Both the position numbers and the translations under genes were made by a program. Below, piece by piece: positions 3,832 to 18,208 of a stretch of DNA of 64,000 nucleotides. This DNA comes from Microbotryomycetes sp. JL201. Lineage: Eukaryota; Basidiomycota; Microbotryomycetes. Numbering within the stretch: the stretch's first letter is position 1; every line of letters begins with the position of its first letter. A model generated the notes under the pieces. That model saw only the letters and a list, made by a program, of their open reading frames with translations. It had not been told where the DNA came from and ran no database searches. The DNA lies in assembly GCA_033819885.1 (NCBI GenBank), contig JAQYUZ010000043.1, positions 62,001 through 126,000 of the forward strand. The letters are read 5' to 3'.

Positions 3832-4879
3832 TTAGCGCCTGAAAATTTTCTTAAAGTCATCAGCTGCGACGCGTGCATCATGATGCCAGCTACGTCCGCC
3901 AGGTCTAGGTCGAACATTATCAATTGTCGGTAACGGATCGCGGTCATGCGTCGGTTCATGTCGATTCCCAATCACAGGTACCGAAAAGGTCGACCCTGTC
4001 AACGTAACGGTTCTCATGAGCATTTCTTGTACGACAATACATTTCGGCAGACCCGAAACAGCAAGAGCCTGGCTGACCTCGTGGTCTGTCGAACGGTGAA
4101 GGTACGTGCAACATGTTTGCGTCATGACGCTGCGGTGGAATTGTGTTGTCTGTAGGAATTCTGGCACGGGGAACGTAACGATCATGGACAGGTGACGACG
4201 GTCGAAGTGGCGAGATTGTCCCAGCGAGTCGTCCTGGATCTGAGGATGAGCGGACTCGAGCGTTGTGTGCAGCGACAGAGTCTTGTACGTCTTGATGCCA
4301 CGAGTTACGGTGTCCTTGAAGACCGCCATCTACGCACATGAAAATCGTTGTCAAATATACTTCGTCTCCGCTTGCTTCGGCCTGGTGAGACACTCACGGT
4401 GATACCCTCCCCTTTCTGCAAAGTTTCATCATGACTTGGTAAGCTCACACGTCTTCAACTAGCGATCCAACCGCTCACTGATGGCTTCTTCCTGAAAAAA
4501 TGGAAGCGCAAAACTCGATCAACCTTGTTTCTTGATCGTAACAATTGCACTACTCACAGCTTCTTCAATGTGCTCCTCTGCCGCGTCAATCCTTTTCTGC
4601 ACTCTCTTGAGCTCGGCCTCTTCCTCGGCGGTCTTGTGCGGGATGACAGCCAGGCGCATCTTTTCTGTTTTCTGCTCATTGGACAATCGTGAATCCACAG
4701 AGATGAGATGGGAGAAGGGCAACTAGAGAGTTCACCAGTCGCTCGAGCTGTTTCTCATAAAACCTTTGTGTTCGCTTGATATCTGCAACGGCGAATGTTC
4801 AGCGGGCACTCCGCCGTGCTGCATTAAAGTTGAACTCACTCTCCAAGCCATTATCATCGTCGTAAGGAATTGTCAACAT
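3832..4879 (-). CDS. Small coiled-coil protein with disordered tail, unknown function
   Basis: Not recognised. Splicing by GT-AG signals and phase gives one open product from the ATG at 4879 (MLTIPYDDDNGLE) to the TAA at 3832-3834, in about seven exons. Residues ~15-75 are strongly helical and charged (IKRTQRFYEKQLERL, then EEEAELKRVQKRIDAAEEHI), a likely coiled coil. The rest is Arg/Pro/His-rich and looks disordered, with a VPSPFDRPRG segment and the C-terminus ADDFKKIFRR. An acceptor (CAG) lies six bases before the ATG, so there is probably a 5'-UTR intron. An unspliced 165-codon frame (3832-4329) overlaps the same exons, but the spliced frame is supported by consecutive phase-compatible introns. 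The gene start lies only about 170 bases from the 3' end of the giant gene, which is transcribed in the same direction. Confidence 0.55.
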
Positions 4880-5047
4880 TCTTCGCTGTAAGGGAAGGAG
4901 GAAAAAGAGAGGCAGAGACCACGCATGGTCAGAGAAGCTCAACTTGTTCCTCGAGGAGCTTTACAGCAACTCCACCTCGGCGATTCTCCGATCTAAGTCC
5001 CGAAAACCACGTGATCCGAGCGCATCACTTAAGGTCACATTGCAGAA

Positions 5048-8000
5048 TCACCCCCGATGCTTGTGTTTACGACTATGCTCGTGAGCTCGCTTGCTTCTTT
5101 CCTCTTTCTGCTTGCGAATGCGCTCCAGAACCTTTGCCCGTCTCTTGCGAGACAGTTTTTGTAGCTCGCGCTGACGCTTCTCCGCCTTCTTCCTCTCTTT
5201 TGCCGCCCGCTTCTCGGCCTTTTTCCGCTTCGCTTCCGCCTCTCGCTCATCATGTTCTCGCCGCCTTTTCGCCTTAAGCGCCGCGTCCTTTTCCTCTGCC
5301 TCGCGTCGTTTCTGCCTCGCCTCTGCTTTCCTACTCTTTCTTTCCTTTCTTCGCTCCTCGTACTCGTGCTTCTCTCTCTCCTTCTCTTCACGCGTCTTGT
5401 GCGCGTGCGCCTCCTTCTTCTTCCTACGTTCAGACGCTTGTTCCTCTTTAGCCTTCTTTTCAGCTTTTCGGCGCTCGCGACGCGCGACGCGCTCATCATC
5501 AATCTCTTTCTGTCTGCGAGTGACAGGCTCGTGCAGGTCTCGCTTCTTCTGTTGGTGTTTGTGGCCGTTGCCACTAGCAGATTCTGCAGCTTTTCTTGAA
5601 GCCTTGTTTGCCTTTGCCTTCTGGCGCTTCTCTTTCTTCTGTTCCTTTGTCAAACGGCCGTGCTTGTCATGTCCACCGTGCCTATCAATGTGAGCAACAT
5701 GTTGATGGTGCAAACGGTCCATCTTGATCTTGCGGTCATCGACTCGTCGACCCAAGTTTGCGATTTCTCGCTCATGGTGCTGAACGTGCTGTACGTGTTC
5801 ATTAGCGTCACCTGCGCCATTGTGGTGAGTTTGAGCAGTAAGGTGAAATCGGTGGCGTTTCGAATGGTGTTGTTTCCCGACCTCGTCGTGCTGCGTACGC
5901 TTCTGATGAGATTCGTACAAGGTATGACCAGCTTTGTCGTCTGCAGCAATACATCGGCCTCAACAACACAAGACTGTTTCAGAAAAGTGACGGAGCTTAC
6001 GACGGGCCTTGGCGTGACCATGCAATTCTTCCGCCGTCTGCACCGCCGCGAAGGCCTGCTTGTATTCGTTCGAGTCTCTTCCAAACTTATCCTCGACTTG
6101 AAGCAAATGTTCGCGGGCAGCTGTAAGCTCTTTCACGCGATTGTCGAGGTGCTCTCGTGACTCTGCACACGCTTGTCAGCACCGTCATCGAAATGACCCC
6201 ATGCAGCTCACTGTGATGCTCTTGCTTGTGCTTGCGATGCTTCTGCTTCAAGACTGTCGTTTTCAAATGCCATCGTGCCCTGTTTCTCTCATCTTCTGCA
6301 TGCTTGAGCATCGCTTTCGTCTCTTTCGACTTCAAATGACGATGTGCTTCTGATGCATGCTTGTACGCTTCATCGGCCTTTTCTGCTGCAGACTGGTGCT
6401 CTTGGTGCTCGGCTTCAAGTTGTGCTTGTTTCTCCTCACGAGCTGTCAAGCCCCGGAATCAGCCCAAGCCTCATTTCTCAGTGTGCCTCATCGGCAACGC
6501 ACATTTCTTTGGCTTTGACGGTTTTGGCTCGAATTCTCGCATGACGTGATTTTTGCTATGGGGTTTCTCGTGCGCGGTCTCATTGTCAGATAATGAAGAG
6601 CCTTCATCGACAGGTCTCTTGTTGCCCTTGTCATGCTCGTAGTGAACCTGCCCTTGGGGCTGATACTGTGGCACCTCGACCCGGTATACAGACACGGGTT
6701 CCTGCCTCGGCACCTCTTGCGGCGTCAAAATGGCCGCCACCCCTCTACCCGATCGCGTATTTCGTCCATGTCGCCGGACATGAGTCGTCTCCATCTCTTC
6801 AAGCTGCTTGCGTAATTGAGCTTGCTTTTCTCTATGTCGAGCAGCTTTCTTTTGAATTTGAGCAGCTTCATCTTGTGAAAGTTGACCGCGATCTAGCTTG
6901 CTTTGGTGATGTCTGTCGAGTCGTTCGTAGCTGTTGAGAACGGCAGAGCCGTGACCGCGATCTGTGGAAGCGAGTCAGTCCGAGACAGTCACTGGTCAAT
7001 AAAGGAACGTACGATCTTCATGAGCCGCATGATGCTCATCTTTTGCCGTCCGAAAAGCCCGAGTAGCTTCAAGGTGTTCAGGAGAACCCTCGCCAAACTT
7101 TGTTTTCGCTCGTTCTCGGCGCTCCTGCGCCTCGTTGAGCTCGACTGATTTTGCTTCGAGGCGCTGGCGTGACTCTTTCAAACGAAAAGCGTGTCAGCTG
7201 GATTCACCTAGCCTGTCAGAGACTGACCATGTAGGCCGTGCTTGTACTGATGGTGCTCGTGCTTCATCATGGCATCATGGTGGGCCGTCTGAGCCCTGTG
7301 GAGCTTGCCCTCGGCGTTCTCAACTGCCACACGCGTTTCATCGGAGTCGTCGTTGCGGTGCTTGTCCGTGGCCGCTTGATGCTGACGGTCTGCCTGGTTC
7401 AATCGGGTGCGCGTCTGAGCAACTTCGCCCTCGAGTCGTTTCGAACGAGCATGATGGCGGATATCTGACTCGTGACGGTCTAAATTGTTGACGGATCAGC
7501 AAATTCGAAAGACTGTCTTTCAAAGCACGACACTGACCAAGGTTGATTAGAAGTTGTCGCTTCTGATCGCGCCTGTGCCGCTTCGTCTCAAGCCGTCTGA
7601 TGGCGTCGGCATGGTATGCAGCTTGCTTGGCGTCCTCAGAATCTTCGCTTGACTGTTCGTGGTTTCGCTCCTGATAACGCTTGTGCATGTCTCGATGCAT
7701 ATCGAGCTGTGCAGCTTCATGCTCGTTGAGGTGGCCGTGAGAGTTGTACAATGCGGAACCATGTTGTTGGACATCACGCTTAGCTTGTTGCTCTTCCTTT
7801 TTCGCTTGGGTCACCTCGGCTTCCGCACGCTGTCGAGCTTCAACATCATCGTGATTAAAGCCAGCCAGATGCCGGCGTGCTCTGCTCAACCGAGTCTGCT
7901 TCTCGTGGTGGATTTTGCGAGCGACGTCAAAATTGTGCTTGTGCTCGGCATGCTTGATCTTGAGCTCTGCTCCTCGATATTCGCTCTCTACCAGCTTGAC

Positions 8001-8940
8001 ATGTCCGGAAGCATGTTGAGCGGCTTGCGCGGATGATGGAGATTGCTTTTCGCGATAATGCGATTGAGCTGCGTCGTGAGCCTCTCTCGCCTCTTGGAGT
8101 CTCGTTTTGTGCTGCTGCAACTGAGTCTGAAGAGTGTCGTGTCGCGTCGAGTGATCTGCAAAGCGCCAGTCAGAAGATCCGACTCGAGAAAATATTCTTG
8201 CTTGCTCACGCTCATTGACCAAGCCTTGCTGCTTGTCTCGACGCTTTCGCACATCTTTTTCCAGCTTTGCAATTGCCTCGGCTTCCTCTTTGGCTCGCTC
8301 GGCGTGCTCAGGGTCATGTTCGGCTCGCTCGAGGTGATGACGGTGGCGCTCACGATGTAATTGGAGCTGCTGCTCGGCGTCATCAATGAGTCGAGCGTGC
8401 GAACGGTGTACCGCGTTCTCAAAGCCACGATCTTTGATGAGTAAATATCAGCTGGCGTCGAAGAAGAAGAGGAAAAGCCAATCAGACTCACGTTGGTGAC
8501 GTGCAGTCTTGTGCTCCTGTCTGGCTTTGTCGTGCGCTGCTTGCGCCTCCAAATGCTCGCGCGAGGAAGCGCCAAATCGTTTTTCGGCTTCGTGCATGCG
8601 TTGGCTGGCTGCAATCTCTGCACCACGCTTTGCCTCGACATTCTTCTTCGAGTCTGTGTCGAAAAAAACATCAGACTAGCCGATATGAGCGACAGAATTG
8701 TTTGCGAACCTTCAAGCGAATGCTTATGACGCCAGTGCTCAGCCTTGTGCTCAATTCTCTGACGCTCAAGCCTTGCAAGATCGTGTCTTGATTGGGCGTT
8801 ATTGAGATGCGCCTTTGTCTCTTCAGTGCCATGCTCTCTGTGACGCTGTCGGGCGCGTTCAAGCTCTCCGCTGGTCTCGAGCTCGTGCCTCTCGTGAACA
8901 GCTGATGAATCCCTCAGCTTTTGTTCGCGTTCTTGAAGAC
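5048..8940 (-). repeat. Threefold three-exon block in the C-terminal part of the giant gene
   Basis: Three copies of a three-exon set. First exons: 8710-8940 (231 bases), 7228-7479 (252) and 6212-6442 (231), sharing a late ET(K/R)....A...........H...KH pattern. Second exons: 8492-8653, 7013-7174 and 6001-6162, each exactly 162 bases (54 residues) and aligning without gaps around (K/R)FG..S.E(H/Y), for example KRFGASSREHLEAQ, TKFGEGSPEHLEAT and DKFGRDSNEYKQAF. Third exons: 8210-8431, 6503-6961 and 5048-5940, whose starts share H....G...L.S (HRGFENAVHRSHARL, HRGHGSAVLNSYERL, HDDKAGHTLYESHQK). An extra 618-base exon (7538-8155) has a similar HGSALYNSHGHL segment, so it may be a fused or intron-lost copy. 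All joins are phase 1. Confidence 0.82.
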
Positions 8941-11900
8941 CTGTCGGCTTTGTCTCAGCTGCCAATTCCCTTTTTGCGTTCTCAGGGACCTCGCGTACTG
9001 AGTTTGACTTTGCGCTGATCAGGTCTGTGCGGGTTTTGCTCCTCTCGGGCGAGCTGTCGCTTTGACTGTGCTGCCTCGTCATCCGACATGGACTCACCTG
9101 GCAGTTCAGCAACGTAAGGAGGCGGCGAAGGAACGTGATAGTTATGAACCGTAGAGTGGCTACCGCCGTTCTCCCCCTGATGAAACTGTGCGTTGTGCTC
9201 ATGCGATGCCGGATGAAAATGACCGTAGTGTCCTCTACGTGAAGTGTTTTCTGCTCGCTCTCCATCCGAGAGTGAGACGCTCTCTTCGTCGTGAAGGCCA
9301 TGTTCTGAAAAAGACCGGCGCCGTCAATGAGGAATAATCCGGAGTAGAGCGCCATCCACGCACCCCGCTCGAAGGCTCTCAGCTTGGCATGCTCGAGCTC
9401 CGCTGCTTCTACATGTGAGCAAGAGACGACAATCTATACCAGCGGCCGACGCACCAGCTTGAGCTGCCGCTTGACGTTCTACGCTGTGCGGCTGGTGCAT
9501 ATGCACTCGAGACTCCGCGTCTGCCGAGGGCAATTCGATGAGCTCTCGTTGAATCGTCGCACCGCAAAAATCAGCTCACGCTCATGTTTCGCCTGCAAAA
9601 GCTTGCGCTGTTTCCGTTTGAGACGTTCTTCGGCTTCCTGCAAGCGCTGTCGCGCATGCTCATCATACGGAGAGTCATGCAAAGCTTTCTCGGCCTCTTC
9701 GACTTCTTGATGCGCCTTCTGCAGTCGATGCTCGCGAGCCGATACCTGGCGCGCGTGAGCGTCTAGCACTGCGGTACGTTCCAATCAGCAGAGGTTCGGG
9801 TTGGAGCGACTGCTGCAGCTTACGCTGGACTCGGTGTGCGTGCTCCTGTTCGGCCGACATTCTTGATGTATCTTCTCCTCGCAAGCCTCATAGAAGCAAG
9901 TGTTGGCTGCTTGTCTTCGTTATCAACGGGCAGTTTCGAAGGCACTCACTGTGCAGTTCGTCTTTCGTCTTCCTATGTTCGGCTTTTGCCACCGCTTGTT
10001 GTGCAAGTGTGTGGCGCTGTTGTGCATTTGCGAGCAGTCCTCTCGCAGCTCGATCATTCGGGTTCCGCTCGGCATGTTCTTTGGCGCGCTTCAACTCCTG
10101 CTCACTCTGCTCGAGGGTCTCTTGATGACCTCTCAAGACGTTTTCATGAGCATCAAGTACTACAGGTGACTATCAGTAATGTTCAATCTACCAGTGGAGA
10201 TCGAGCTCACGGTTTTCAAAATGACGGCGTTTCTGGTCTTTGCTCATGCCGCTAGTATCCGCCGCCCGAAGCTCTGAAGAAGATGCCGCAGTGTCAATCT
10301 GTAGTTTGTGTCACAGATTCCCCGGTGAATAGCACAGCTTACGTCTCAAGTGACCATCTGTAGACCTCTTAGTCAGTTCCATTTTTGCCGCATCAGAGCT
10401 GCTTGTATTCACCATGGTGCGCTTTCAGCTCGTTGTGGGCTTCCGCGTGCTGCTTGCGGTGATGCTCGAAAGCTGCTTCGGCGTCAGCCAGCCGCTTCCT
10501 CGCCTGGTCGTCGCGTGGGTTTGCCTCGAGAGCCTTACGAGCCTCTTCGACCTTCGCTGAAGCGTGCTCGAGCTGGTCTTTGTGCGCCCGCACCAATCTC
10601 TCCTGAGCGCGGCGCACTGATGAAAGCACAACGTCAGCCGGGTACTCATCCCTGATCACATGACGCACGATCGTCCTGGTGCTCTTCATGCTCAGATCGT
10701 GTCATGCCCGCGATGTCACGCTCCTTTAGTTCTGGCTCGCCCCAGCCCCACATCAAGGTCAGCGAAGGCGTGATCAGGAGGAGGATGACTGACTCTGTAG
10801 GCCGTCTTCAGCTTCTTGGCGAAAAGCTTCGGCTGTGTAAATCTTCGTCAGCTTGATTGTATGCCGTAATGAGCTCTGCACTAACCTCGATGACTCTGCT
10901 TTTCAGATTGGCTGTCTCGCCATTGGGCTGTTTTGCGTTGCCATCGCGCTTTGGCTTCATCCGCCTTGCGTCGCAGCTTCTGATCGTTCGGACTGGCTAG
11001 GGCGGCATCATGAGCGGTTGCATACTCTTCTCGAGCGCGTTCCATCTTTTCTCTTCGGGATTCGACAACTCCTCGATGTGCCTCATGCACTAGGGAGGGC
11101 AGGCACCAAACATTTAGCTGATACGGATTACTCAAGCTGCAGACATCTGCGTACAGTCTTCGTGGTGGCGCTTGAGCTCTTCCGGGGTCATGCCTGACGT
11201 GTCCTTCTCTTGCAGCTCTGCATTCAATGCTGGCCGAGTGAGCTTGTTGCCGCCTCGCGAGGGTGTTCAAGCGCACCTTTCAGATTTGACTTCGCCTCAC
11301 GATGACTTGCGGCTTGGTGATGCCTTGTGCCTTCGTCTGCGACGCGGGGGTCAGCCGACGGGACAAAAAGGGGCCCAAGAAGCAGCTTACGCTCGTCTTG
11401 CAGTCTTTCATACGCTTCGTCCTTTTGCCGCTCGAGACTCTCGAGTTTTGCTTGGGCTTCCCTGATTTTTCGCGGGTCATTCGATGCCTGTGCGTTGCGC
11501 AAATGCTCCCGAGCTTTCGCGACTTTTCTGACAAGCGCCTTGTGCTCTAGCGCAACTGTATCCGACTGAAGGTCAGCTCAACTCAAACGGGATATAGTGA
11601 GTATTTACCTTCTGGCTTTTGCTGGTGAGATGCCTCGGCATGGTACTCTGTCTCTCGAGGCAAACGGTCCTGGTTTTTCGAATCTCGAGCGTGCTGCTTG
11701 GCGCGCTCGAGAGCTTCTTCAGCTCGGAAGACCTTTTCTTTTGCTTGAACGACGTTTTCTTCCGCTTCATCGCGTTCCTCGTCGGACGCATGCCGACCCA
11801 AAGTGTCCAAATGCTGCTCGGCCCACCGCAATTCCTGCTTGGCGTGTTCGAGGGCCTGCTCGGCCTCTTCCACGGTGAGCACTGGAATAGATCACGATCA

Positions 11901-14900
11901 GGGCCTGCTCAAAGTGCTTTCCAATAAGCCATATCTTGCCTTCGCCTCCGTGAGAGCCGGGAGCGTGCCTCGAATCCCGGGCGTCCTGTATTCTCTTGGC
12001 TTGTCGCTCAAGTTTGCCTATCTCGCCTCTGTCTTCTTCAAAATCCCACTCTAGCTGTTGAAGCACTGTACAAGCAGTTTGAGACACCATTTTATCAACC
12101 TGCACGACACTCACGCTCGAGATAGCGATGCGCTTTGAGGTGGAGCTCGTGAGCGGTCGGGAGAGGCACCCGTGGTCGCCCTGCAAAGGGCAACGAGTGA
12201 GCATTCGACGAGAATAAGAGCGCAATGCAATAAACTGACTCTTGCGACCTTGAGGACGCATAGTAGCTTGAATCTCGCGAACAGATCTCAGCATTTCTAA
12301 CGCTCTTTCTGCATTTCGATAGCTTGGCGAATGGTGAGCATGCGACAGCGCACGATGGTACTCGGAGATGGCCTCGGCTTCCCGTTCTTCGTCTTCTTCT
12401 TCTCCGGTTCGTCGACTTCTTCCTCTGTCGATGTCGTCGAAATCTCTGTCCTCTCTGTCAAGCCTGTCGTCGCGAGGGTCAAGATTACGCTGAGAACCAT
12501 CTTGCATTCGGTCAAGGTCGTCACGATCGCGATCAAAGTCATATTCTGCCAAAGTCGTAGTCAGCGAAAGTTGCATTGTTTGGCAGATCGATATCACCTC
12601 GTCCTCTGCTATCGCCACGGCCACCGATGCCGTCATCAAAACCTGCGCCTCCACCCAGGCCGCCATTGTATCCTGAGTTGTCCCTGTCGCCGTAGTCATC
12701 ATAGGAAGAATTGCGCTGTCCACCGAAACTTCCACCGTTACCGCCACCGTAACCGTCGTCTCTATCGTAATCATTTTGGGCGCCGCCACCGCCACCGCCG
12801 CCCCAGCCTCCGCCTCCGCTTGAGCCCGAGTCATAGTCATCATTGTACCCTGTGCTCCCGCGTAAACCACCACCTCCTCCTCCTCCGAAGCCATCATCGT
12901 ATGATTGGTCTTGGCGACTTCCTTGGTCATTGCCAAGTCCTCCGCCGCCAAAATTGTCGCCGTCATCATATGATTGATTGCTCTGACGTCGGCTTTGATC
13001 ATTGTCAAGCCCACCATCGCCAAATGGCTCATCACGATTACCTCGTCCGGGAACAGCGTTATCAAAGCTGTCCCCGCCCGCATTACGCGAAGAGTTGTCG
13101 TTGATTCCATCATCGAGACCGTTATCCGCGCCAATTTGAGAAGCCGGCGTGCCGAATGCGTCATCTAGCAGTACGTCAATGTCAACAGGGCCTGCAATCC
13201 CACTCAATGGTGTGCACACCTTTTGGGTCGACGTCAGCACCGCTGAAACCGTCACCGCCGAGGTTTGCTTGTCCCGGCTTCGAATTTGTCATCTCGGCGT
13301 CGGACAGATTAGCACCATCCGACTCGCCAGCACCTGCCCCCAAGCGTATCAGTTCATGGATTCGCATAAACGTAAGAGCAGCCTGACCCGGTTTGCCAAT
13401 CGAATGTTGCGAGCCAAAGTCGTCGTCACCTGGTTTTGCCGCTGCTACAGCGTTGGTTTTGGTGTCGCCTTGATCAAGGTCAGACAGGTTGGCGTCATCA
13501 ATATGGGTGCCACCTTTGTGAGGGACATCAGCGAATGTCCAATGTGGGGTGCATGAGTAGTCTGCGGCATACCTGCTTTGCTCGTTGGGTTTCGTTGATC
13601 GAACTCGTCATCATTAGTTGGCTGACCCGTCGACGCGCTCGCAAGAGGTTCGTCTCCTGAGTCAACATCTGACAAATTGGCACTCCCTTGCAAGCCAGCG
13701 GCAGAATCGCCATCTTTTGTACTGCCTACAAAATTTGCAATAGTCAGTATCGTGGGGGTCTTGTACTTCACGCTTGAACTCACTCCGCTTGTCTGACACA
13801 TCCATAGACTGCGCCGCACCTTCATCGCCTTCAGAGCCCACCGGAACGCGCTTGTCTGGTCCATCCATGTCATCGTCTGACAGATTTCCACCGAACCCGC
13901 CTTTGTCTCCATCGTCCAGACCCGGATTTGCAGCACGAGATTCGAAAGAGTTTTCGCGAGCGCTTTCTCGCTCAACCGCCTCGCCTCTATCGTTGTCAGG
14001 ATCTCCATTGTATGCTTCCGAATGGTAGAACTCGTCCTCGGACATTGCTCGTCCACTATTCTGATCAAGATCAGGGTCCGAATTGCTCATATCCGACCCA
14101 GAATTATCAGCCGAGCTGTCGCGATTCAAACCTCGTGGAGCACGCCTGAAAGAATCATCCCCGGACTCGTCGTCTAGCGGCCGCGATTCTGGTTCACCTT
14201 TTTGATCGCGCCGAGGCTGTTGATCAAATTGTTGATCCGAGTCCGAAGCCGAGTCATCGTTGGTATTATATCTAGAAGCATGATCTCGAAAACTTGGTTC
14301 TCGGGAGATCCCTTCCATACTCGAGTCTGTCAGGTCCCTCGTATCCGGCTCTTGAAAAGTAGACTGTGATTGAGGAGCACGTTTTGGATAACTCGAGTCC
14401 GAAAACGAGGTGACGTCTCCCCTTGCTTCGTCGTCCATCGAATCCGCGCCGGCACCGGAACGAAGGTTGGGTTTTCGGTCTTGAGTGTCGACAGGTGCAC
14501 CATCTCGAGCTGTTTGTTGCTCATCGTCAAAGCTAGACACTGAGTTGACGTCTTGTGGAGCACTATCTGTTGGTCGAGCAATCGGGTCTGCGATGTACGC
14601 ACCAATTTGATGTCGATACTTCCTTCTTCGTGTACTTTGAGCTGATTCTGGTAGGGCAGAGTCGGGTTGACTGGCCCGACGCTTATCCAGGGGCTCCTTG
14701 CTACCACTCGAGTCACTTGCAGCGTCTGTCCAAGACCCATCTACGGTTGGTGTGCCGGCCGGTTGAGCATCAACGAGCTCATGAGAGGTCAGAGCACCGT
14801 CATCTGCCTCACTCTCGCCACCGTCGTAGCCAGATGCGACAGAATCTGTTCGTTGACGACTCGGTTTCGACCGAAAACCTTGGCGTCGCTTGCGTACAGG

Positions 14901-16753
14901 CGGATATGAAGGAGTAGGAGTGTCTGAATCTGATGCCGCGCCGACATCTGACGCATCACGATAGCCTGGCGTAGTCGTCGCATCAGCGGCAATGTTGTTG
15001 TTTGCCCCCAAGTCAGGGCTTAAGCCAAATTCCGACGACTCAATGCCTGCATCGCCTTCTTCCGCCACCGGTGAGCGGTGAGGGTGGTGATGATGGTGGC
15101 GATGATGATAGTGGTCCCGACGAGTCCCACTTGTCGGCCTGCTACCCTCGGGTTTTGCGCTGGCATTCTGACTTGACCTTTGGCGATTTACAAACGGTGG
15201 CAAATCGCTTGATCTCAAGTCGGTATTCGATTCAATCGAGACGTCTTGGTCATTGTCACTCGATTGAGGTGTCATAAAGGGCTCCGAATCAGAACTCGTC
15301 GGAGCTGACGTGGTTTGAGCGCTAAAACGTCGGCTAAGTCCCTGCTCTGGAAAAGGAACAGATGCAGGTTTCGAGCGGTCATCCGAGTCCAAAAAATTTG
15401 TGACCGGTAGATCCACAGATGAAGAAGTTGATGGAGGCCGGAGTTGCTTCGGGCCAGTCACGTTGCTCAGTGGCTGAGACGGTGTGGGCTGAACAGGCTG
15501 AGCTGGCGAAACTGGTAATTGTGTTTGCGGTATAGGCTGCTGGCTCGGAACCAAGTACACAATTTGTGGCTGAGGCTGAGGCTGAGTTTGAGGCTGCAAT
15601 GGAGCTGCTGCGTTGACCGGCAATGATGTGCGACTCGAATTCGCCACGCTCGATGGCGACGTCGCAAACTGGAACATCCTCGGAGCTGGAACAAAGCTTG
15701 CTGGGACGGGCAACGGGGGCGCATCAGGAGCTTGCGGTCTCTGCTGCACAGACTCCATTGGTGGCTTGGAATTAACCGTACGCCGAGACGTTGGCATAAA
15801 ACGAGAGTCTACAGGCTGTAATGACCCTGGCGGCTGATACACTGCTGGCTGGGATGCTATTGAAGGTGACGGAAACGGAGGTGGCGGAGCATATTGCTGG
15901 AATAGCGGCATCGGAGCGTTCTGTGGGGTAAAGTACGGCGTAGTGGACGGTGGATTTTGTACGTTGGCGTAAGCATAGACGACAGGCTGCGAATATGTTG
16001 CTGCGCGATAGCCGTCAGCTCATACATCACTGTAGTGTTCCACGACACCTTACTTGCGACCGGCATTTGATTCTGAAGAACAGGCACAAACTGGGGTGGC
16101 GCCTGTGCCTGTTGCATCAAAGGACTTCCCTGAACATTGTACGGATTGAATGACTGCTGATACGGCCCAGGGCCGGGATTTGTCTCAGTAGCAGACTGTG
16201 ATCGTGCGGGAGTCGGAATCTGCGGCGGAAAAGTCGGCTGAGACGATGAAATCTCTGGCTGTCTCGATGCCGCAGACGCAGCCATGGGTTCGAATCGACC
16301 CTCTTCCGAGTCTGAGCCCGTGCGAGATCCCATTGGAGGCTTTGGCGCAGGTTGAAGTGCCGCGTCAACCCCCGGATCTGATCGTGGGCACCGTCAACGG
16401 GGACTGTCAATTGTCGGGAAACTCGTCTACTGACCTGGTTGTAAGCTCTGCTCCTGCACAAAACTGCTTTCACGAGCACTCTGATCGACAAGGTCGTCTC
16501 CTTCAGCAACTGGTACTGATCCACGTTCATCTGCCTGGTGGTGTTGATATCTGTGATGGCGATGCGGCAACAATCTACGATGATGGTTCGAAAGCTGAAC
16601 ATGAGACATGTCGTTCACGCTCAAAGGCTCATCATCTCTTCGACTGCTTGCAACATTCGCAGGCGATTGTCGATCTCGTCTACGTCGTGGTGTGTCTTCT
16701 TTCCTTTGCGACGTAGGTTCAAACGGATCGGAGGTTGAGCGTGGCACTACCAT
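5048..16753 (-). CDS. Giant multi-exon repeat protein (Ala/Glu/His-rich helical modules), undescribed
   Basis: One reading frame threads about 36 exons from the start near 16753 to the TGA at 5048-5050, giving roughly 3,250 residues. Every intron I could place is phase 1, one of them GC-AG (11882-11939). Order, N to C: disordered Arg/Pro/Gln-rich exons (16054-16746); a 739-residue Pro/Ser/Asp-rich exon (13784-16000); three small exons carrying ANLSD motifs; a Gly/Asp-rich exon with GGGGGGG runs (about 12.6-13.2 kb); an Asp/Arg-rich exon; then many helical exons rich in Ala, Glu, Lys and His (5.0-12.1 kb); finally a Lys/Arg/Glu-rich tail that may form a single charged helix. No signal peptide, membrane segment or enzyme motif is seen. 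The start is uncertain: an in-frame ATG at 16753, or an ATG split by an intron at 16747-16804. Giant repetitive fungal tethers such as Woronin-body leashin ('involucrin repeat') are a loose architectural analogy only. Confidence 0.75.
9580..11217 (-). repeat. Four tandem copies of a two-exon protein module in the giant gene
   Basis: Four copies of a short exon followed by a long exon. The short exons are 11155-11217, 10669-10731, 10211-10273 and 9824-9886, each exactly 63 bases (21 residues) with the pattern xL...D(T/I)(S/A)xM.......H. Examples are ELQEKDTSGMTPEEL, KLKERDIAGMTRSEH, QLRAADTSGMSKDQK and SLRGEDTSRMSAEQE. The long exons are 10886-11089 and 10413-10616 (204 bases each), 9950-10159 (210) and 9580-9768 (189). 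Each codes a 63-70-residue helical segment with a central (N/S)P.D......L..A motif, for example EANPRDDQARKRLADAE and ERNPNDRAARGLLANAQ. Copies 2 and 3 are preceded by tiny exons (10794-10832, 39 bases; 10343-10357, 15 bases), and copy 1 by a 60-base exon (11277-11336). This is tandem duplication of symmetric phase-1 exons. Confidence 0.85.
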
Positions 16754-17127
16754 TTGCAAAGCGTCAACTCCGCTCGTTCAAAGTAAGCCTTTATACCCAC
16801 TTACTTGCGACGCCGTGGCGAGTCAAACTCGAAGAGGGATTGACAAGGGCTACCAGGACTCCTTTGTTCTATCGAAAAGAATCTAGCGCGGTGAAAGCAT
16901 GTCGCCAACAGCTGAAACGTTTGAATCACGGCACTGCTGTAAGGCGCGCCGCGGAAATTTACACGAAAGACTCCTCACTGTTGCCGGCGAACTGTCTGCC
17001 CGAAGCTCAAAATTGAACGAATACGGATGACAACATGAAGTGACAAAGTGTCGATCTATGTCTGAGGAAATCCACCGACGTCAGCAACAAGCTCGGGAAC
17101 ACGCGTTTCGCCACTTGCATGAAATGC
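16754..17127. other. intergenic region upstream of the giant gene
   Basis: Lies between the giant gene start and the stop of the cyclotransferase-like gene, both on the minus strand. It probably holds the giant gene's promoter and 5' untranslated exon, including a well-formed intron at 16747-16804 (GTAAGT donor, TTGAC branch, GTAG acceptor). No other coding sequence can be supported. Confidence 0.5.
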
Positions 17128-18208
17128 TCATGGATACCCTCCTTCACCCTCGTTTCGATACCCACTACCTGCTGCGCAGCTCAGCGCCTTTTCAACAAGT
17201 CTGACAAAGTAGGTTTCGACCGTTTCTGCGGCGCTAGCGAGCCGTGCGGCGCCCTTGTCAACGATTCTCGGCCAAAAAGACAATCGCGAAAGAAAGACGG
17301 CGGGCAAGTGGACAAAGAGGTATCTTGGCAGCATGACGGAAGTCATTATCCATGAAGCGAATCGTTTGCGCACCGTCAAGTCCGGTTTGAAAGGTCTGAT
17401 GAGCGACAAATGGCCGAGAAAAGGCTGAGACAAGCTCGAGAAATGGGCGCCAATCAAAACAAGCCTGAGATAGCTGCAGCATGTCGGACGACGCTTAAGA
17501 TCAGCCGATGAAGATGGAACACGAGCGACGAGATTCTGACGGACCGCAGGGTGGGCTGCATGCCTGGCTCTTGATTGGCATCGTTCATGAACGTCGGCAG
17601 ATACACCTCAATCTCTTCGCTCTCGTGACCAGTGATTGAGCTGAACATGACAGCTCTCACTCGTACGAGCGACTGCCCGACTTGTAAGCGCGCCTGAACG
17701 CGTTCAAAATCCTTTTGGGTCATTTTGTACGCCACGCCCTGATGAGATTGCGTCAGCCGGGTCTCGAAAAGGGTAAAAAAAAATCGACAGACCTCGAGGA
17801 AAGGCGGCATTGAACCCGTGTAGTCCAAACCTGGACAAGACCGCTGCCAGATCCATCGTTTAAAGTCTTCGTCGTTGTCACAATCCGTCTCTCTGGTACC
17901 GATACGGGGTTGGTCATTGAAGCCTCGTACGATTGCAGTCGCCAAGCATGGTTCGATGAAAGGAACGCCTTTACGCGTAAAAGCTAGCCACGCGTCTTTG
18001 ATTCTGACCGTCTCGGTCGCGAGTGGCGCCTTTGGCATGGCCAACGGTTTGAATTGGGCTGTGAGTTCCGTGAAGCGAGAGTGAGTTGATTGATATGACT
18101 TTGAATGTAATTAAACAACTTGCGATGCAAGTTTGCACCGTAAAGGCAGAACCAGACCGAGTCGTCATGGTTTCTGTCGGTCATGTCGTCGTTGCGGTCG
18201 TGCAGCAT
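17128..18208 (-). CDS. Gamma-glutamylcyclotransferase-like (AIG2/GGCT fold) protein
   Basis: Resembles fungal gamma-glutamylcyclotransferase-like proteins, which may act in glutathione turnover. Starting at the ATG at 18208, exon 1 ends in VWFCLYGANLH, the position of the family's YGSN loop, here with Ala for Ser. A GC-AG intron (18059-18123) leads in frame to PQFKPLAMPKAPLATE and then the family-typical AFTRKGVPFIEPC. A later exon starts GVAYKMTQKDFERV, matching the usual GVAY.L...D. A final intron with a GTCCGT donor joins PTLR to YLRLVLIGA. The last part (LPRYLFVHLPAVFLSRLSFW) is hydrophobic and may be a membrane anchor. The TGA is at 17128-17130. The family call rests on several motif islands; the substrate is unknown and the YGSN change leaves activity uncertain. 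Confidence 0.65.

Follow-up and report, generated by a model that had tools for sequence, protein, structure and literature searches.

Metazoan class 1-1 genes, including those of titin and other muscle proteins, combine symmetric phase-1 exons and serial repeats with a very long protein product (PMC8001218). Among class 1-1 modules, those in most frequent use are mainly β, with a negligible mainly-α fraction, and the review raises the question of what confines exon shuffling to Metazoa (PMC8001218). Exon shuffling has been analysed in one fungus, Cryptococcus neoformans, so that fungi do not stand wholly outside the subject (PMC3045794). A giant fungal protein of a different kind is leashin or Lah, the Woronin body tether, which is repetitive, lineage-restricted and has two different ends (PMC2690989). 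The gene described here is found on the minus strand of a 64,000-nucleotide stretch (the window) of contig JAQYUZ010000043.1 of the basidiomycete Microbotryomycetes sp. JL201, whose assembly comprises 17.15 Mb in 92 contigs. It corresponds to OIV83_005334 (P0001), a deposited and undescribed hypothetical protein, and in the curated model consists of 37 exons and 36 introns that encode 3,223 residues. Its construction by duplication of symmetric exons is well supported.

All 36 introns of the curated giant-gene model are in phase 1. With no phase prior imposed, an automatic run placed 36 of its 39 introns within the bounds of the gene in this phase and recovered 35 of the 36 curated introns; its four non-curated introns, and all three that depart from phase 1, lie within the 785-amino acid open frame that makes up exon 3 or at its margin. 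The deposited protein was also threaded onto the window with the fewest introns and GT/GC-AG borders, which yielded phase 1 for 33 of 33 introns from 16434 to 5941, followed by a phase 0 join where a fusion to the next gene begins. The background is formed by 78 other predicted genes from 19 of 20 sampled stretches of 10 kb and from the window outside 3832-18208, whose 875 introns are distributed as 348/275/252 over phases 0/1/2; the most phase-uniform of the 56 background genes with at least six introns reaches 7/8. At one third per intron the chance of 36/36 is 7e-18, which overstates the improbability because copied introns inherit their phase, and with approximately 21 independent intron positions at 275/875 it is still about 3e-11. 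Glycine codons account for two of the 36 codons split by introns, and insertion at Gly-coding proto-splice sites is therefore not the cause of the phase 1 pattern. The gene displays the features of the class 1-1 type, namely repeated modules, flanking introns of a single phase (36/36 as opposed to 275/875 in the background) and lengths that are multiples of three. Since the exons are symmetric, the reading frame survives the gain or loss of nearly every single exon or series of consecutive exons: 660 of 666 forward exon joins, the 36 native joins included, stay open and six create a stop codon. The exon design is frame-safe, and the cell may make use of it by actual exon skipping.

The helical half of the protein is built from two tandem blocks, each with four copies of a repeat (Table 1). 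Repeat 1 consists of exons S and M with an optional linker, and repeat 2 of modules A, B and C that span about 205 residues. In a comparison of exons 9-37 without the five-residue exon 20 (378 pairs), the 17 best pairs all fell inside the S group (exons 15, 18, 21 and 23; 63 nucleotides each), the M group (exons 16, 19, 22 and 24; 189-210 nucleotides), the B group (exons 29, 33 and 36; 162 nucleotides each) or the A/C/31 group (pairs 30-31, 31-32 and 32-35), 12 of them at E<=0.054. All 12 pairs of whole units are significant, with P 2e-7 to 0.0013 after some unit ends had been trimmed by hand. In an alignment blind to introns, copies 1, 3 and 4 of repeat 2 carry their introns at identical columns, 84 and 139, and copy 2 has none; the S-M junction occupies one column in all four copies of repeat 1. 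Module borders thus coincide with introns at S-M in 4/4 copies, at A-B and B-C in 3/4 and at M-linker in two of the three copies that have a linker.

Comparison of the copies at the DNA level provides an indication of their age. Corresponding introns (12 pairs) show no similarity, with z -1.5 to 2.0 against a mean of 0.1 and a standard deviation of 0.94 for 97 other pairs, while corresponding exons (11 pairs) can still be aligned (z 1.9 to 8.4). This decay of introns between alignable exons suggests an old origin of the copies and constraint on their coding parts. The intron-less copy 2 of repeat 2, exon 31, has either lost its introns or preserves the arrangement that preceded them. The ANLSD exons 4-6 may constitute a third repeat family (pair 4-5 P 2e-4, 5-6 P 0.013, 4-6 P 0.08). 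Descent of all hairpins from one ancestor is suggestive only: hhalign gave E 0.0012 for A-M, 0.0021 for M-exon 12 and 0.0041 for B-M, all with a probability <20%, and the other 12 of 15 pairs were weaker. An M profile matched exon 12 at E 8e-4 and an A profile matched exon 22 at E 6e-4.

The gene model was produced by a gene finder trained on the 64-kb window itself and then curated by eye. Intron lengths range from 45 to 73 nucleotides throughout. In 37/37 exons the selected frame has a higher codon score than the other two, with a codon table trained on the window including the giant gene, and its donor, acceptor and branch sites score on average no lower than those of 165 introns of neighbouring genes under models from the same training. 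Intron 11939-11882, within exons 9-14, is of the GC-AG type, and intron 9097-9025, 3′ of exons 26-27, is ambiguous. The original prediction, which gave the gene in 5048..16753 about 36 exons and about 3,250 residues, agrees with these coordinates, and its claim of a single gene is borne out by the uninterrupted frame, introns of <=73 nucleotides, uniform phase and the deposited model, which together with the splice signals point to a single transcript. It did not mention the phase-1 uniformity of the introns, the order of the blocks, the copy without introns or the fusion in the deposited model.

With regard to donor usage in general, 879 introns of other genes, again from the 19 stretches and the window outside 3832-18208, begin with GTG (335), GTC (273), GTA (144), GTT (27) or GC- (100), GTC donors being frequent in predicted introns. 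In the gene for PP2A, exons linked through GTCAGT and GTCCGT donors agree with the conserved PP2A protein.

The deposited OIV83_005334 (3,317 amino acids), modelled by other workers, agrees with the curated model at 29/36 junctions. It starts at a Met at 16609, has several exons altered or omitted, which for the omissions may be a matter of prediction only, and translates the 45-nucleotide intron after exon 8 as coding. From 5131 it jumps to 4886 in phase 0, past the stop and into the next gene, whose introns are of mixed phase in the threaded protein. OIV83_005334 is wrongly fused to this gene, an error in the public annotation. The short gene in question (3832-4879) has no Pfam match at E<=0.01. 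Automatic runs likewise fused the giant gene with its neighbours, for example in a run without a phase prior over 3832-18208 with 55 introns distributed as 43/6/6 over phases 1/0/2. The start of the giant gene is uncertain, given the deposited Met and a plausible intron at 16804-16747 that overlaps the presumed ATG. This intron-like stretch reads GTAAGT...TAG on the minus strand and contains a TATAAA box. An upstream gene (17374-18058, minus strand) has a weak AIG2-like match (E 0.0077, under the curated cut-off) with an approximate query joined from exon peptides.

The ordered architecture noted in the original prediction is confirmed by composition. A Pro/Ser/Gln-rich region is followed by an acidic Ser/Asp-rich region, the NLSD exons, a Gly-rich and an Asp/Arg-rich region, the helical half and a Lys/Arg/Glu-rich C-terminal tail. 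The tail has a net charge of +48 and the whole protein one of -42, and the helical repeats are rich in Ala, Glu, Arg and His. The region of exons 1-3 is probably disordered, judging from its composition. Trp occurs eight times and Cys not at all in 3,223 residues, and no hydrophobic segment was found in the giant protein (highest 19-residue mean 0.59); the lack of Cys and of a hydrophobic segment fits a soluble cytosolic protein.

Table 1. Coordinates of the giant gene, its exon groups and repeat copies, and the adjoining downstream gene (positions of the window)
Feature	Position	Strand	Remarks
Whole coding gene	5048..16753	minus	ATG at 16753, stop ending at 5048; 37 exons, 36 introns, 3,223 amino acids
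Exons 1-3	13784..16753	minus	16753-16435, 16377-16054, 16000-13784; Pro/Ser/Gln-rich, then acidic Ser/Asp-rich
Exons 4-6	13220..13725	minus	13725-13573, 13513-13388, 13333-13220; one ANLSD motif each
Exon 7	12598..13164	minus	Gly-rich (32% Gly), by composition
Exon 8	12354..12545	minus	Asp/Arg-rich, by composition
Exons 9-14	11277..12308	minus	Helical half begins; exon 12 a weak M-like hairpin
Repeat 1 copy 1	10794..11217	minus	S 11217-11155 (63 nucleotides), M 11089-10886 (204 nucleotides), linker 10832-10794
Repeat 1 copy 2	10343..10731	minus	S 10731-10669 (63 nucleotides), M 10616-10413 (204 nucleotides), linker micro-exon 10357-10343 (15 nucleotides)
Repeat 1 copy 3	9950..10273	minus	S 10273-10211 (63 nucleotides), M 10159-9950 (210 nucleotides), without linker exon
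Repeat 1 copy 4	9455..9886	minus	S 9886-9824 (63 nucleotides), M 9768-9580 (189 nucleotides), linker 9520-9455
Exons 26-27	9098..9402	minus	His-rich linker with SLSDGE motif, by composition
Repeat 2 copy 1	8210..9024	minus	A 9024-8710, B 8653-8492 (162 nucleotides), C 8431-8210
Repeat 2 copy 2	7538..8155	minus	A, B and C in single exon 31, intron-less
Repeat 2 copy 3	6503..7479	minus	A 7479-7228, B 7174-7013 (162 nucleotides), C 6961-6503, tail with SLSDNE
Repeat 2 copy 4	5048..6442	minus	A 6442-6212, B 6162-6001 (162 nucleotides), C opens exon 5940-5048, then basic charged tail
Separate downstream gene	3832..4879	minus	Appended to the giant gene in OIV83_005334 through the 5131-4886 join

AlphaFold2 predicts a helical hairpin for exon 19 (predicted local distance difference test score, pLDDT, 93) and three long helices for exon 31 (pLDDT 90; predicted template modelling score 0.63). 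These predictions assign hairpins to modules M, A and B, and the C module may form one as well. The fold matches listed were generic helical ones, and a family missing from those lists may still apply. Hydrophobic periodicity exceeds that of shuffles in both repeat regions, peaking at 3.58-3.76, and is not clearly above shuffles in the charged tail. A heptad coiled coil was rejected for the repeat regions on the basis of this peak, as a control stretch of SMC4 gave 3.50-3.54. The evidence for an 11-residue periodicity of the LEA or apolipoprotein kind is too weak.

Searches for known domains and relatives of the protein were largely negative. Three pieces, which between them span the protein except for residues 1001-1270, matched no Pfam family at E<=0.1, and single M exons gave sub-cut-off Pfam matches only, each in one of four members, the best being WXG100 (E 0.0047) and TPR_20 (E 0.013). 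A protein search with residues 1270-2900, in which the top 7,999 word-sharing candidates were scored, found the deposited copy as its single match at E<=0.01. With 151 residues of P0001 (875 candidates) the single match at E<=0.1 was P0001 itself, and with the helical half (7,997 scored) there was none at E<=1, P0001 with its 3,317 residues falling outside the length limits. The word filter of these searches is estimated to miss orthologues near 40% identity often, and the apparent orphan status of the protein holds only at this sensitivity. Exons 19, 24 and 31 matched nothing in their own genome outside the giant gene better than E 0.71, in searches that missed most sister copies and for exon 31 matched exon 31 alone. 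The duplication demonstrated here is that within one gene, and modules may also have moved between genes. Overall, the original interpretation is supported in part. Growth by exon duplication stands, on the shared lengths of the repeat exons and on significant similarity between exons and between units, as do the single gene and the lack of a recognisable domain (Pfam silent, listed folds generic); no relatives were found within the limits of weak protein searches.

Several observations weigh against the proposed construction. When GC donors were forbidden, 35/37 introns between 16434 and 5941 were in phase 1, the exceptions being a phase 2 intron within exon 3 and a phase 0 intron beside the GC-AG one. 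The codon and splice models derive from a window that contains the giant gene, whose two ends were chosen manually on the basis of the stop at 5048 and of the frame open at 16753, and the deposited protein departs from the curated model at seven junctions (8, 10, 11, 24, 25, 27 and 28). The M-linker junction in copy 4 of repeat 1 is located in a different column from that of copies 1 and 2, and introns sit within predicted long helices rather than at clean domain edges. Composition-preserving shuffles may inflate the likeness between charged helices, for which the many dissimilar cross-family pairs in the 378-pair comparison serve as a control. No orthologue was found in the three protein searches, which are weak for diverged sequences, and conservation is hence not measurable. 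Finally, the non-repeat exons are also flanked by phase-1 introns, yet similarity among them is limited to exons 4-6, so that duplication alone cannot explain every intron.

The phase of these non-repeat exons, along with the intron-less copy 2 of repeat 2, would fit a history in which the repeats predate most of the introns, having formed in a gene with few of them, and phase-1 insertion followed, by chance or through an insertion preference. Such late insertion is unlikely given that three copies of repeat 2 share both intron columns exactly and that the S-M junction is common to all four copies of repeat 1. Insertion at phase-1 proto-splice sites would moreover be expected to split Gly codons (PMC8001218), which is rarely seen here, and the other sampled genes lack a phase-1 excess. 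A division of the locus into two or more genes, disordered and helical, that every model has misjoined is very improbable. The two halves do differ in composition, both the automatic runs and the deposited model do fuse neighbours to the giant gene, and the giant leashin locus of Neurospora proved to be two transcription units (PMC2690989). Against this, no curated intron exceeds 73 nucleotides, there is no stop in frame, and the phase stays uniform over both halves until it shifts at the start of the wrong fusion.

As to function, a tether of the septal pore or of an organelle, on the model of leashin in filamentous ascomycetes, would also be large, repetitive, rich in low complexity and, being lineage-restricted (PMC2690989), in keeping with the lack of detected relatives. 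Size, charge and repeat type do not agree, and this identity is improbable. Predicted leashins range from 5,936 to 10,821 amino acids and are strongly acidic, with a charge of -1088 for the Neurospora one, and contain Pro/Leu/acidic repeats rather than helical hairpins (PMC2690989), whereas the giant protein is shorter, has a net charge of -42 and is built of helical repeats; leashin is furthermore reported to be specific to Pezizomycotina (PMC10023807). It is improbable that the helical modules are serial membrane- or Rab-binding domains of the BAR, F-BAR or bMERB type. Spectrin-type and BAR-type helices are likewise long with short turns, here as predicted, but the giant protein does not match them in sequence, the fold matches listed for it stay at the generic level, and no spectrin repeat, BAR or bMERB profile was matched in the Pfam searches described above.

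The preferred explanation is a single gene that grew by symmetric class 1-1 exon and block duplication and that encodes what is most probably a structural scaffold or spacer of the cytosol; this combined reading may be given about an even chance of being right. Repeated duplication of symmetric exons and exon blocks would have lengthened the gene. The disordered acidic N-terminal half could engage in weak multivalent contacts, and a series of some 12 to 16 antiparallel helical hairpins might form a rod, the length of which would be set by the number of hairpins. The strongly basic C-terminal part might in turn hold an acidic surface such as a membrane, RNA or a filament. A cytosolic scaffold that binds by both ends and is adjustable in length would be in line with this general architecture. 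The length of titin is tuned by exon skipping during splicing. By analogy, it is tentatively proposed, as a possibility well short of probable, that exon skipping tunes the length of a giant scaffold in a fungal gene made almost wholly of class 1-1 exons with helical hairpins.

The giant gene bears two marks that are diagnostic of animal class 1-1 genes, a single intron phase and the agreement of modules with introns (PMC8001218). It differs from the metazoan genes in that its host is a fungus and its modules are helical, and in that the copies found so far, with an own-genome search that is weak, are all within one gene. Among the open-access papers listed, titles and the first lines of abstracts yielded no fungal gene with symmetric or phase-1 exon shuffling or duplication, and no paper on the strain was found there under its names. 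Pucciniomycotina keep a relatively high intron density among fungi, which would make growth by exon duplication easier (PMC8476143). The locus presents, in a basidiomycete, the building of a gene from exon blocks with an intact frame, a mode described mainly for animals. It offers a compact natural test case for the onset of symmetric exon duplication, for the absence of introns from a duplicated block and for the possible variation of protein length by frame-safe exons.

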